In this document: positions 6,919 to 11,006 of the stretch, one piece after another
How the letters are laid out: every line of letters begins with the position of its first letter
Position numbering within the stretch: position 1 is the first letter of the stretch
NCBI RefSeq assembly: GCF_018613805.1
Contig: NZ_JAGGPL010000018.1
Coordinates: 124,001-188,000, forward strand
Source: Arthrobacter sp. ISL-48
GTDB lineage: Bacteria; Actinomycetota; Actinomycetes; Actinomycetales; Micrococcaceae
Direction: 5' to 3'
DNA: 64,000 bases
Made by a program: the position numbers and the translations under genes
Notes under the pieces: model-generated
Seen by the model: only the letters and a program-made list of their open reading frames with translations
Database searches by the model: none
What the model was told of the DNA's origin: nothing

Positions 6919-7440
6919 TCAGATGAGGTGGGAGCGGCGTTCTATCAGCAACGTGTCCCGCCATTGACCGGCGGAGGGTCCATGCGTCATCCGGGCGATC
7001 TTCACCCGTCGTCCCACGACCGTGAAGCCCTGGCCGAGGTGGAGGTTCAGGCTCGCCTGATTTTCCGGGAAGACGTTGGACTGAATGGTCCAGATCCCGT
7101 CCCTTTCCGTTGACTGCGACAAGGCATTGAGAAGGACTTTCCCAGCCCCCCTGCCACGGGCGGCGGCAGCGACGTAAACGGAGTGCTCAACTACGCCCGC
7201 GTAGACTGGCCGTCCGGACACCGCCGAGACGGCTGCCCAGCCCACCACTTCCCCTGATGGCATCTCTGCCACCAGCCGGTGCCCCTGCAGGCGTGTGCTG
7301 TCGAACCGTGCCCAGTCAGGGGCTTCCGACTCGAATGTGGCGTCTCCCGTCGCGATGCCTTCGGCAAAAATCCGCTGAACAGCGGGCCAGTCGGATTCGC
7401 TCATCGGCCGCACGGAGACTCGCGCTGTATCACCTGTCAC
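6919..7440 (-). CDS. GNAT acetyltransferase, phosphinothricin/ArsN1-like
   Basis: The 173-residue product has the fold of phosphinothricin-type N-acetyltransferases: VRPMSESDWPAVQRIFAEGI, ATFESEAP, the acetyl-CoA loop AARGRGAGKVLL, and FPENQASLNLHLGQGF near the end. In ars loci this family (ArsN1) acetylates arsinothricin, so the location makes that role attractive, but glufosinate-like substrates are also possible. The GTG start at 7440 overlaps the arsR stop as GTGA, so translation is probably coupled; the frame upstream of it lies inside arsR. Confidence 0.85.
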   Translation of the reverse strand: MTGDTARVSVRPMSESDWPAVQRIFAEGIATGDATFESEAPDWARFDSTRLQGHRLVAEMPSGEVVGWAAVSAVSGRPVYAGVVEHSVYVAAAARGRGAGKVLLNALSQSTERDGIWTIQSNVFPENQASLNLHLGQGFTVVGRRVKIARMTHGPSAGQWRDTLLIERRSHLI

Positions 7441-7787
7441 AGCGATGCCAGGAGGCCGGCTACTTCGTCGAGCGCGCCGGGCACCAGCGAGTAGTAGGCC
7501 CACGTGCCGCGCTTTTCACGGTTAAGCAGCCCCGCATCCACCAAAATCCTGAGGTGGTGGGACACGGTGGGCTGGCCCAGGTCCAATGGTTCGGTCAGGT
7601 CACAGACGCAGGACTCGCCCGACTCCGAGGCCTTGACGATGGACAGCAGCCGGAGGCGGTTCGGGTCCGCGAGTGCCTTGAACGCCTGGGCCTTCCCCTG
7701 GGCCTCTTCCGCGCTCAGTGCAGGCACGACGGACGGGATGCAACAGGCATCTGTTTCATTTGCTTCAACGGCAACGGTGGCAGTCAC
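7437..7787 (-). CDS. arsR: ArsR-family arsenic-responsive repressor
   Basis: This winged-helix repressor has 116 residues from the GTG at 7787. The helix-turn-helix reads LGQPTVSHHLRILVDAGLL. The CVCDL motif in the alpha3 region and the DACC motif near the N-terminus supply cysteines for As(III). It is divergent from acr3, with a dyad between the genes. An in-frame ATG at 7817 would add 10 residues but overlaps the operator, so the shorter form is preferred. ArsR should repress both directions until it binds arsenite. Confidence 0.9.
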   Translation of the reverse strand: MTATVAVEANETDACCIPSVVPALSAEEAQGKAQAFKALADPNRLRLLSIVKASESGESCVCDLTEPLDLGQPTVSHHLRILVDAGLLNREKRGTWAYYSLVPGALDEVAGLLASL

Positions 7788-7806
7788 GTATCCATTATGC
7801 AGTAGA

Positions 7807-7857
7807 TTGACATCCATCGATATAGGTGGAGATACTTCTTATATCGACAGTCGTCAA
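7807..7857. promoter_or_regulatory. Overlapping divergent ars promoters with ArsR operator
   Basis: TCGATATA (7817-7824) and TATATCGA (7840-7847) form an inverted repeat of the type bound by ArsR. Plus strand: TTGACA (7807-7812), 18 bases, GATACT (7831-7836) toward acr3. Minus strand: TTGACG (7852-7857), 17 bases, TATCTC (7829-7834) toward arsR. One bound repressor would block both promoters. Confidence 0.72.
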
Positions 7858-7883: not shown

Positions 7884-8981
7884 GTGAGCATCCAGACCGA
7901 TCCGTCCGCCGCCGTTATCGAAGGGGCCGCCGTTGTCGGCAAACTTTCCATCCTGGATCGCTTCCTTCCGGTATGGATCGTCGCCGCCATGGCCCTGGGA
8001 CTGCTGCTCGGCAGCTTCGTCCCAGGCCTGAACACCGCTCTGGACGCGGTGAAGGTCGGCGAGGTTTCGCTGCCGATCGCCGTCGGCCTGCTGGTGATGA
8101 TGTACCCCGTCCTGGCGAAGGTACGCTACGACGAGGCGCACCGTGTGGTCCGTGACCGGAAACTGATGATCACGTCCCTGGTGCTGAACTGGCTGCTGGC
8201 CCCGGCATTCATGTTCGCCCTCGCCTGGATCTTCATCCCCGACCTTCCCGAATACCGCACCGGGCTCATCATCGTCGGACTGGCCCGCTGCATCGCCATG
8301 GTGATGATCTGGAATGACCTCGCGTGCGGTGACAGCGAAGCGGCAGCGGTACTGGTGGCCATCAACTCTGTTTTCCAGGTGATCGCGTTCGGTGCCCTGG
8401 GCTGGTTCTACCTCCAACTGCTGCCCTCCATGCTCGGCTTGCCCACTACCAGCGCGGACTTCTCCTTCTGGGCCATCACCGGCTCCGTCCTGGTGTTCCT
8501 CGGCATCCCGCTGCTCGCCGGATTCCTTACCCGGAGCGTTGGTGAGAAAGCCAAGGGCCGGGACTGGTACGAGAACAAGTTCCTGCCGAGGTTGGGGCCC
8601 TGGGCGCTCTACGGCCTGCTCTTCACCATCACCCTGCTTTTCGCCCTGCAGGGCGACACCATCACCGCAAACCCGCTGGACGTCGCCCGGATCGCCCTGC
8701 CGCTGCTCGTCTACTTTGTGGTCGTCTTCGGCGCGGGCATGCTGATCGGCAGGTGGCTGGACCTGGGCTATGCCAAGACCACCACGCTGGCCTTCACCGC
8801 CGCGGGCAACAACTTCGAGCTCGCCATCGCGGTGGCCATCGGAACCTTCGGCGTCTCCTCCGGGCAGGCACTGGCCGGCGCCGTCGGACCGTTAATTGAA
8901 GTCCCGGCCCTGGTGGCTCTTGTCTATGCGGCGTTGTGGACGCGAAAGCGATACTTTGCCACTACGCCTGCATCCCTCTAG
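7884..8981 (+). CDS. acr3: Acr3-type arsenite efflux permease
   Basis: The 365-residue integral membrane protein belongs to the Acr3/BASS fold with about ten helices. LARCIAMVMIWNDLACGD contains the Cys and the conserved Trp-Asn of the Acr3 transport site, and AAGNNFELAIAVAIGTFG is the second signature. It expels As(III)-thiol-derived arsenite using the proton gradient. The GTG at 7884 is preceded by AGGAG with 4-base spacing. It heads the arsenic operon that continues with arsC. Confidence 0.95.
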   Translation: MSIQTDPSAAVIEGAAVVGKLSILDRFLPVWIVAAMALGLLLGSFVPGLNTALDAVKVGEVSLPIAVGLLVMMYPVLAKVRYDEAHRVVRDRKLMITSLVLNWLLAPAFMFALAWIFIPDLPEYRTGLIIVGLARCIAMVMIWNDLACGDSEAAAVLVAINSVFQVIAFGALGWFYLQLLPSMLGLPTTSADFSFWAITGSVLVFLGIPLLAGFLTRSVGEKAKGRDWYENKFLPRLGPWALYGLLFTITLLFALQGDTITANPLDVARIALPLLVYFVVVFGAGMLIGRWLDLGYAKTTTLAFTAAGNNFELAIAVAIGTFGVSSGQALAGAVGPLIEVPALVALVYAALWTRKRYFATTPASL

Positions 8982-9008: not shown

Positions 9009-9461
9009 ATGACCACCGAAACCGCCAAGAAGCCCTCCGTCCTTTTCGTCTGCGTCCACAATGCCGGCCGCTCGCAGATGGCTGCCGCCTTCCTCACTAC
9101 GCTCTCCAAGGGCGCAATCGAGGTCCGCTCCGCCGGTTCCCAGCCCGCGGACAAGATCAACCCGTCCGCCGTCGAAGCGATGGCCGAGGTGGACATCGAT
9201 ATGTCCTCGGAGATCCCCAAGGTCCTCACCACTGAAGCGGTCAAAGAGTCCGATGTGGTGATCACCATGGGGTGCGGCGATGAATGCCCGTACTTCCCGG
9301 GTAAGCGGTACGAGGACTGGGTCCTGGAGGATCCGGCCGGCAAGGGGGTGGATTCAGTCCGCCCCATCCGCGACGAGATCAAGGCGCGTATCGAGGGCCT
9401 CATTGTGTCCCTCACGCCCGCCACCAAGTCAGAAACCAGAACAGGGGAGGGGGTGGGCTGA
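9009..9461 (+). CDS. arsC: Arsenate reductase, low-molecular-weight phosphatase type
   Basis: The 150-residue enzyme reduces arsenate to arsenite. The P-loop CVHNAGRSQ (Cx5R; Cys about residue 15) is the nucleophile site, with a second Cys pair in MGCGDECPYFPG that serves in thiol relay. The general-acid Asp is in LEDPAGK. This family uses thioredoxin or mycothiol; the variant here resembles actinobacterial ArsC proteins. It lies 27 bases after acr3 and its product would feed that pump. Confidence 0.94.
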   Translation: MTTETAKKPSVLFVCVHNAGRSQMAAAFLTTLSKGAIEVRSAGSQPADKINPSAVEAMAEVDIDMSSEIPKVLTTEAVKESDVVITMGCGDECPYFPGKRYEDWVLEDPAGKGVDSVRPIRDEIKARIEGLIVSLTPATKSETRTGEGVG

Positions 9462-9521
9462 ATGAGGACAAATTGCTGCGGTGACTCGGGTTGCTGCGAC
9501 GAGGATCAGGACTGCTGCTGA
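9462..9521 (+). CDS. Tiny cysteine-pair peptide in the arsenic operon
   Basis: A 19-codon frame begins at the ATG directly after the arsC stop and encodes MRTNCCGDSGCCDEDQDCC. It has six cysteines as three vicinal CC pairs and four acidic residues. A purine-rich GGGGAGGGGG sequence (9444-9453) lies about 8 bases upstream of the ATG as a ribosome site. Vicinal Cys pairs bind As(III) in the ArsD metallochaperone, so a role as arsenite buffer or carrier is an inference; I know of no family for this peptide. The position between arsC and the flavoprotein, on the same strand, supports co-expression. Chance cannot be ruled out for so short a frame. Confidence 0.55.
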   Translation: MRTNCCGDSGCCDEDQDCC

Positions 9522-9573
9522 CTAGCGCACTCCTGACCAAACCGAGCACGTACAGATGGAACAGAGGACAACC

Positions 9574-10866
9574 ATGGATCCAGCGAAGGACCTTCCCATT
9601 GGCGTCATCGGTGCCGGCCCGGTGGGACTGGCCGCCGCGGCGCACCTCCTCGAACGCGGGCTCGAGCCGCTAATCTTCGAGGCCGGTCCTTCCGCAGGAG
9701 CCGCCATGGAGCAATGGCGCCATATCCGCCTCTTCTCACCCTGGCGATTCAACATCGACGCCGCCGCCGTCCGCCTGCTCGAAAGCGCGGGCTGGGAGAC
9801 GCCCCGGCCCGCGGCCCTGCCCTACGGCGGGGACATGATCGACGGCTACCTGGCGCCGCTGGCCGAGCTGCCGGCCATCGGCTCCCGGCTGCAGACCGGC
9901 GCCAGGGTCATCTCAGTGACCCGCGCCGGCATGGACAAGACCCACACCAGCCATCGCGAGGCGACGCCGTTCATTGTCCGCGTTGAACACGAGGACGGAG
10001 AAACCCGCGACCACGTGGTGGCAGCCGTCATCGACGCCTCCGGCACCTGGTCCAGCCGTAACCCGCTCGGCACTTCCGGCCTGCCCGCAATCGGTGAAGA
10101 CGCCGCAGCGGAGCGGATCTCCTCCCCACTGCCGGACGTCACCGGTAGGGACCGCGCCTCGTTCGCAGGCCGCCGCGTCCTGGTCATCGGCGCCGGGCAC
10201 TCGGCGGCCAACACGCTCATCAGCCTCGCCGACCTCGCCAGGGCAGAACCGGACACCAGGATCCTGTGGGCAGTCCGCGGTGCCTCCGCCGAGAAGGTCT
10301 ATGGCGGCGGCGACGCCGATGGCCTGCCGGCCCGCGGCCAGCTCGGCAGCCGGCTCCGGCGCCTCGTCGAGAGCGGAACCATCGAACTGCTTACCGGGTT
10401 CGGCATCGGCTCGATGAAATCCCTTGACTCCCACGTGAGTGTCGAAGCCGTTGACGGACGGATTTTGGACGTCGACGTCGTCGTGCCCTGCACCGGCTTC
10501 CGTCCTGACCTGGGCATCCTGCGTGAACTCCGTCTCGAACTGGACCCCGCAGTCGAAGCTCCCCGAGGACTCGGACCGCTGATCGACCCCGAATTCCACT
10601 CCTGCGGCACCGTCCCGCCGCACGGTGCCAAGCTCCTGGCCCACCCGGACCAGGGCTTCTACATTGTGGGTATGAAGTCCTACGGCCGGGCACCAACCTT
10701 CCTGCTTGCCACCGGCTACGAACAGGTCCGCTCCGTGGTCGCAGCCCTCGCCGGCGACCACGAAGCCGCCGACTCCGTCCAGCTCGAACTTCCCGAGACA
10801 GGAGTATGCGCCGCCGGCGCCGGAATCAGCTGCGACGTTCCCGCCGCGGCCACGGCAACCGCCTGA
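9574..10866 (+). CDS. Flavin-dependent monooxygenase-like protein of the ars operon
   Basis: The 430-residue flavoprotein has an FAD-binding Rossmann motif GVIGAGPVGLAAAAHL at the N-terminus and a second nucleotide motif VLVIGAGHSAANTLI near residue 200. The C-terminal PCTGFRPDLG resembles the ATG-like motif of flavin monooxygenases. Related proteins in Streptomyces ars islands are called ArsO; the substrate is unproven. The ATG at 9574 has AGAGGA 7 bases upstream, better than the ATG at 9556. The end VCAAGAGISCDVPAAATATA carries two Cys that may touch metal. It is probably the last gene of the operon. Confidence 0.85.
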   Translation: MDPAKDLPIGVIGAGPVGLAAAAHLLERGLEPLIFEAGPSAGAAMEQWRHIRLFSPWRFNIDAAAVRLLESAGWETPRPAALPYGGDMIDGYLAPLAELPAIGSRLQTGARVISVTRAGMDKTHTSHREATPFIVRVEHEDGETRDHVVAAVIDASGTWSSRNPLGTSGLPAIGEDAAAERISSPLPDVTGRDRASFAGRRVLVIGAGHSAANTLISLADLARAEPDTRILWAVRGASAEKVYGGGDADGLPARGQLGSRLRRLVESGTIELLTGFGIGSMKSLDSHVSVEAVDGRILDVDVVVPCTGFRPDLGILRELRLELDPAVEAPRGLGPLIDPEFHSCGTVPPHGAKLLAHPDQGFYIVGMKSYGRAPTFLLATGYEQVRSVVAALAGDHEAADSVQLELPETGVCAAGAGISCDVPAAATATA

Positions 10867-11006
10867 GAGGATGGCTGCTGCTCCGCCGGACGGCCAGCGG
10901 ACACCGTGGCCGGTCCAGCTCAGGGCCCCGGACGCCGCCGTCGGGCGCCCTTGAACGTGGCCAACCCCACGCCTAACGTTGAGACATACGAAAGGTGCGT
11001 GAAGGC

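Follow-up and report, generated by a model that had tools for sequence, protein, structure and literature searches.

The ars operon in a 64,000-nucleotide stretch of Arthrobacter sp. ISL-48 DNA (hereafter the window) holds, between arsC and a flavoprotein gene, an open reading frame (ORF) of only 19 codons, and the question raised by this locus is whether so small a frame is a gene and, if so, what its product does. The operon is ordered arsR (divergent), acr3, arsC, peptide and ArsO-like flavoprotein (Table 1), and a promoter-like site in the divergent arsR-acr3 region perhaps serves the acr3-arsC-peptide-flavoprotein series. Since the arsC ORF closes with a TGA at 9459–9461, the ATG of the peptide abuts the arsC stop without a gap; this and the translation agree with an earlier note on this DNA, which had described a frame directly after the arsC stop with three cysteine pairs. 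An alternative start of the flavoprotein lies at 9556. A GNAT gene on the minus strand (6919–7503) adjoins arsR; at 111.5 bits, against a cut-off of 170, it comes nearest to the ArsN1 family A model and is possibly a relative of the arsinothricin-type N-acetyltransferases.

Table 1. Features of the ars operon and its surroundings in the window
Feature	Position	Strand	Description
arsR, divergent ArsR/SmtB regulator	7437–7817	−	N-terminal CC (ETDACCIPS)
Promoter-like site, arsR-acr3 divergent region	7807–7836	+	identified by consensus alone; one site against 0.4 expected
acr3 arsenite efflux transporter	7884–8981	+	TIGR00832, 421 bits, cut-off 283
arsC, arsenate reductase (LMWPc family)	9009–9461	+	PF01451 above cut-off; TIGR02689 and others under curated cut-offs
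Extended Shine-Dalgarno of the peptide	9445–9456	+	GGGGAGGGGGTGGGCTGA before ATG
CC-pair microprotein ORF	9462–9521	+	MRTNCCGDSGCCDEDQDCC*, 19 aa, three cysteine pairs
ArsO-like flavoprotein	9574–10866	+	430 aa from the better-supported start; NF040505, 57.7 bits against a cut-off of 425; Pyr_redox_3

Cysteine accounts for six of the 19 residues, the very high content that characterizes bacterial metallothioneins. The frame is the sole ORF of 14–34 aa in the window with at least two CC pairs, and 20 first-order Markov resamples gave a mean of 0.05 ORFs with at least two pairs, and 0.0 with at least three, per 64 kb. Two CC pairs alone are little proof, because longer out-of-frame ORFs of 45–58 aa also contain at least two (L007, L011, L013, L022 and L031; loci and genomes carry handles in L and G). 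Among the 944,718 bases of fetched loci, which partly overlap and from which the loci of the profile A1 searches and of the DNA pattern scan, both described below, were excluded, 68 ORFs of 14–34 aa had at least three pairs; all of them passed a lenient family filter (CC at the end plus GC[CY] or [DNEH]CC within). The open frame, its conservation, selection on its amino acids, its ribosome site and its ars context can all be read from the DNA, and the ORF is almost certainly a genuine protein-coding gene and a member of a conserved family of very small genes.

The bases at −17 to −6 of 66 family ORFs have the consensus GRRAGGRGGTGA, which pairs almost perfectly with the 16S anti-Shine-Dalgarno. 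The good ribosome site reported by the earlier note is reflected in a duplex energy with the anti-Shine-Dalgarno of −19.3 kcal/mol in the window, against −6.9 for acr3, −6.4 for arsC and −8.2 for the flavoprotein (start 9574); for arsR, the longest-ORF start was taken in these calculations. The family mean was −20.7 kcal/mol, whereas 89 arsC starts of relatives averaged −7.3, and a 70-aa ORF downstream also has a fairly strong site (−13.3, computed with its start three bases off). So strong a Shine-Dalgarno suggests high expression of the peptide, as a stoichiometric binder would need. The wide margin over the sites of acr3, arsC and the flavoprotein would equally suit a ribosome-loading or coupling device in which the peptide product is irrelevant, and a Shine-Dalgarno-like sequence is kept at two loci that have no peptide (L128 and L163). 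Such a device is nevertheless highly improbable given that the amino acids are under selection and the CC pairs conserved (see below), and some copies have no recognised ars gene downstream.

The flavoprotein was used as the anchor for relatives, and the peptide was counted by reading the DNA upstream of it, because searches with peptide-only profiles were insensitive. Profile A1 matched 56 of 198 same-genus genomes and missed known carriers, G004 and G019 among them, and among the 149 family genomes it returned the window genome and one weak match (E 0.0995) while missing the carriers G002 and G270. Profile A2 returned, from 248 order genomes, the window genome and one weak match (E 0.034); the locus of that match showed no small CC ORF. 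The anchor itself matched in 181 of the 198 same-genus genomes (E ≤ 0.001) and, at E ≤ 1e-60, in 96 of the 149 family and 79 of the 248 order genomes.

An intact CC peptide, defined by an ATG, a C-terminal CC and at least five cysteines, with decayed copies left out, precedes the ArsO-like flavoprotein at 66 of the 150 same-genus loci among the matches listed, the window included. The earlier note had proposed checking the corresponding position in relatives for CC-pair ORFs, and they are found there; as the loci comprise only the matches listed, the fraction is not a genus-wide rate. The 66 divide into 62 of 110 loci mostly nearest to the window's (the best-ranked flavoprotein matches, to about 76% identity, together with G092, G101, G104 and G002, four genomes contributing two loci each) and 4 of the 40 more distant loci of a second sample, which held the remaining listed matches. 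The peptide thus accompanies flavoproteins close to that of the window, and the lower count from distant loci bears on the spread of the gene, not on the odds that it is coding, that it binds metal or that it has the role proposed below. An intact copy was lacking at the other 84 of the 150 loci listed, and on a quick tree of 113 loci the presence label needs at least 27 changes, nine of them forced by well-supported branches, against a mean of 37 for shuffled labels; the peptide gene is therefore dispensable. The 48 loci without an intact copy among the 110 include one stop-loss copy (L142) and the two with a Shine-Dalgarno-like sequence only (L128 and L163). At L142 (G121, same contig as L227) the stop codon of the peptide is TGG and the frame continues into the flavoprotein, forming a natural in-frame fusion. 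Some members have lost part of their cysteines, a pair reading CY at L004, CR at L168 and SC at L172, and L161 is without most of the pattern.

Outside the genus, one of 47 flavoprotein loci has the peptide (L083, MDENCCTETGCCTNGTGCC), L073 among the 47 being without upstream DNA, and loci anchored on the aquaporin, which matched in 16 of the 149 family genomes, contributed no peptide beyond G002. With this single locus and two Sinomonas loci of the pattern scan, the peptide is rare outside the genus.

A scan independent of any anchor gene was performed with the DNA pattern TGCTGC-NNN-GAY-N{3,6}-TGCTGY-GA-N{9,33}-TGCTGY-TRR across 84,980 species genomes, a set that may omit records near the window genome. 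The scan is not exhaustive, since 52 of the 66 members then known match the pattern. It returned 65 matching stretches, of which 40 are family members (including L227, whose stop codon is lost) from Arthrobacter, Pseudarthrobacter, Paenarthrobacter and Sinomonas (two loci), and all 40 lie beside ars-cluster genes: the fetched stretch includes arsR, acr3, arsC or the flavoprotein for 38 of them, and an ars-type trxB only for L221 and L258. Because these 40 loci overlap the same-genus genomes, the scan and the same-genus counts are not independent. The 25 matches outside the family comprise eight scattered stretches and 17 C-terminal tails, mostly clostridial. The latter, mostly from clostridial MAGs (L195, L203, L206, L207, L211, L213, L217, L219, L224, L228, L231, L238, L245, L247, L249, L257 and L259), belong to an unrelated protein with a conserved tail of about CLCCADSCCECMGGDLxxCC and have no ars query gene nearby.

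Three plasmid records carry the peptide with no CDS annotated for it, the gene table used being incomplete. A tblastn search of plasmids with a 23-residue relative gave no match and, as plasmid copies exist, is uninformative. In pTC2 (CP000476.1, L261 6000–7529) the CDS AAur_pTC20060, annotated as a 'putative Secreted protein', starts inside the peptide gene in another frame, and its start is probably misplaced. Three members (23, 25 and 30 aa) had no match in Pfam or NCBIfam even at E 10, and profile A2 found no PDB chain at E 1, very short queries limiting the sensitivity of both searches; neither a known metallothionein family nor a solved chain was thus matched by these queries. Among the papers listed in searches of the open-licence PMC literature, none describes such a peptide, as judged by titles and the starts of abstracts. 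The family is new to these sources, while its kind, a cysteine-rich metal-binding microprotein with vicinal thiols as arsenite ligands, is already known.

The family consensus is M-x-T-G-CC-G-D-x-G-CC-D-x-D-Q-D-CC. Lengths are 17–26 aa in 66 distinct-context ORFs with 58 distinct sequences (a different set from the 66 peptide-bearing loci above) and 30–31 aa at L236 and L310, and repetition of the CC unit has produced four pairs at L190 and five at L236. Among the 16 ungapped 19-mers, Cys5 and Cys11 are present in all, Cys6 in 15 and Cys12 in 14. The constancy of the last CC in these carries no weight, because that pair was part of the search filter; it was also found by a search without that requirement. 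Averaged over 215 related pairs of equal length and at least 70% amino-acid identity, without a tree, pN/pS was 0.30 (pN 0.078, pS 0.255), compared with 2.58 and 0.94 in the shifted frames of the same DNA. With non-cysteine codons only the ratio was 0.37, so that selection also preserves the spacers, GDSG and DQD for example. By these sequence comparisons, purifying selection acts on the amino acids of the peptide. Mean identity among the 19-mers was 0.72–0.92 per ten bases within the ORF and 0.67–0.82 over the 20 bases upstream, falling to 0.47 in the first ten bases past the stop and 0.28–0.39 beyond. Conservation therefore spans the Shine-Dalgarno and the ORF and is near background 10–20 nt past the stop.

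The surroundings of the gene vary. The flavoprotein follows the peptide (PEP) in acr3-arsC-PEP-flavoprotein (the window), arsC-trxB-PEP-flavoprotein (e.g. L262), arsR-aqpS-arsC-PEP-flavoprotein (L216 and L244) and arsR-aqpS-PEP-flavoprotein-arsC (L194 and L229), where the name aqpS is given to genes resembling the aquaporin of L189; the gene that the plasmid records annotate as MIP/aquaporin is a more distant one. Nine loci have no flavoprotein next: arsR-aqpS-arsC-PEP (L189, L191 and L232, together with L222, whose stretch starts inside aqpS), acr3-arsC-trxB-PEP (L190, where no query gene follows), trxB-PEP (L192 and L258) and arsR-aqpS-PEP-arsC-trxB (L215 and L254). At seven of the nine, L215 and L254 being the exceptions, the fetched stretch shows no match to any of the six query genes beyond the peptide. 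The peptide gene thus moves within ars clusters, standing after arsC, trxB or the aquaporin gene.

This mobility bears on the suggestion of the earlier note that the ORF is a leader peptide sensing cysteine supply or metal. In such a mechanism, ribosome stalling on the CC codons would control the flavoprotein gene by attenuation, as in the polycysteine short ORFs of mycobacteria, for which cysteine-responsive regulation is described in a passage of PMC9094748. The peptide is likewise a short, cysteine-dense actinobacterial ORF that can stand ahead of an operon gene, and a palindromic repeat of about 60 bp (AACTAGGTAGC...GCTACCTAGTT), a potential hairpin, lies before the flavoprotein at 14 of 62 peptide loci against 3 of 48 others. 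The repeat is absent from the window and missing from 48 of the 62 peptide loci; it was seen between peptide and flavoprotein at L006, L007, L013 and L014 and, without a peptide, at L026, L141 and L143. The mycobacterial attenuators are leaderless ORFs at a transcript 5' end in a fixed position upstream of the regulated gene, whereas the peptide gene is probably internal to its transcript, lying after acr3 and arsC in the window, has an extreme Shine-Dalgarno, is movable, and has no fixed downstream gene, being in places the last of the recognised cluster or ahead of arsC. Its non-cysteine codons are selected and the sequence past its stop is unconserved. In the window, no terminator-like site or structured attenuator was found between arsC and the flavoprotein, the RNA fold was no stronger than that of shuffles (z-score −0.26), and the two Rfam matches were both far below the gathering score. 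A leader predicts a fixed downstream gene, selection on cysteine codons only and an RNA switch; the loci read run counter to the first two, no switch was seen in the window, and we consider this suggestion very unlikely to be right.

The gene that precedes the peptide addresses a further alternative, a thiol redox partner that would shuttle electrons or form mixed disulfides between TrxB, ArsC or the flavoprotein. Although trxB precedes the peptide at 41 of the 66 peptide-bearing same-genus loci, there is no preference for it, since the peptide is present at 41 of 86 trxB-preceded and 24 of 53 arsC-preceded junctions (one of eight where no gene was recognised, and none of three behind acr3 or the aquaporin gene). 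The peptide also occurs in arsR-aqpS-arsC clusters where trxB was undetected on the fetched stretch (L189, L191 and L232), and its consensus contains no CxxC motif, leaving a redox role improbable.

It is quite probable that the peptide binds a soft metal or As(III). Vicinal thiols bind arsenite strongly, as a passage of PMC6205960 notes. We modestly favour a more specific reading based on the sequences, that of an As(III)-binding microprotein which would buffer arsenite in the cytosol or relay it from arsenate reductase to exporter. According to this model, induction of the operon would yield an acidic, cysteine-rich microprotein that is probably abundant, and its three vicinal cysteine pairs would probably bind one or two As(III) ions per peptide. 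ArsC yields As(III) in the cytosol, and a small, acidic, CC-rich product of the same gene cluster would most simply hold it until export by Acr3 or the aquaporin, with a presumed hand-over from peptide to transporter. An exporting aquaporin has a precedent in Sinorhizobium AqpS, which may export the arsenite made by ArsC according to a passage of the same source (PMC6205960). The earlier note had proposed an As(III) buffer or a carrier to Acr3. The CC pairs, selection, ribosome site, multiplied CC units and ars context lend this proposal indirect support, but to name Acr3 as the recipient is too narrow: arsR-aquaporin-arsC clusters in which acr3 was not detected on the fetched stretch hold several of the copies, so that a preference for Acr3 is unsupported.

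Nothing in the peptide sequence singles out As(III) among thiophilic ions, and six cysteines in 19 residues with acidic spacers would suit many soft metals. The peptide could accordingly be a minimal metallothionein for another metal, such as Cu(I), Zn(II), Cd(II) or Sb(III), that is merely located in ars operons; Sb(III), which this operon would handle too, may be a ligand. Against mere location stands the finding that all 40 members from the anchor-free pattern scan lie beside ars-cluster genes, most of the remaining members adding nothing on ars linkage because they were fetched by an ars anchor. Another metal as the ligand is thus unlikely, if somewhat less so than the other alternatives considered here. 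Bacterial metallothioneins include MymT and SmtA. The peptide shares their small size, cysteine content of about 30% and expandable cysteine clusters, and differs in being shorter, in its CC-pair pattern, in its ars linkage and in matching no family model.

ArsD, the arsenite chaperone already known, works with the ArsA ATPase, to which it hands As(III), and the two genes are almost always neighbours, as stated in passages of PMC6205960; Cys12, Cys13 and Cys18 are essential for its chaperone role according to a passage of PMC4562236. Like ArsD, the peptide resides in ars operons; its CC pairs are near-invariant and may serve as As(III) ligands, as the vicinal cysteines of ArsD do. It differs from the much larger ArsD in size, at 17–31 aa against the 123 positions of the ArsD Pfam model, and has no detectable sequence relation to it, three relatives having no Pfam or NCBIfam match. 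The ArsD family has no match in the whole window genome, and no ArsA partner was found in the operon among the six window proteins scanned. Two weak, partial matches to the ArsA_ATPase model (42 and 30 bits) occur elsewhere in the genome and not in the window; all 14 control genomes match that model as well.

Vicinal cysteines recur in the flavoprotein, whose low-complexity tail (ETGVCSTDAGTSCDVPA...GCCxAPEPVLxGFPTGLSHGRSG) has at least one CC at 100 of the 110 same-genus loci and at 41 of the 47 from other genera; 12 of these 47 have two or three CC units. At L078, L083, L085, L094 and others, two or three units sit in proline/alanine-rich linkers and resemble a tethered peptide motif. The window flavoprotein is without a CC tail; its stop at 10864–10866 is followed in frame by GGC-TGC-TGC (10864–10881). 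Both peptide and tail are low-complexity sequences with vicinal CC, and the tail motif ETGVCSTDAGTSCD resembles TGCCTDTGCCD, but the tail is part of an enzyme and the likeness is weak, with 9 of 300 shuffles as good, so that homology of the two is suggestive only. Among the 110 loci, a tail CC is present at 55 and absent at 7 with the peptide, against 45 and 3 without it, giving no sign that peptide and tail replace each other, and free and tethered CC arms may serve one end. Near the aquaporin genes of L270, L271 and L272 lie ORF pieces with terminal CC...CC tails; the sequence before these tails resembles the C-termini of ArsI/CadI, so that another ars protein with CC arms is possible.

The family indicates that a metal-binding microprotein can be discovered by comparison alone, and sensors or clean-up could make use of it as a compact module that binds arsenite. 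Since the genome has no ArsD match, the peptide is a testable candidate for the role of ArsD in Acr3- or aquaporin-type clusters. More tentatively, and as a possibility we hold at less than even, the free microprotein of 17–31 residues and the CC tails of the flavoprotein in Micrococcaceae ars operons would form one shared system that passes As(III) between reductase, flavoenzyme and exporter without ArsD, and the peptide would then possibly be the smallest dedicated arsenite carrier known.
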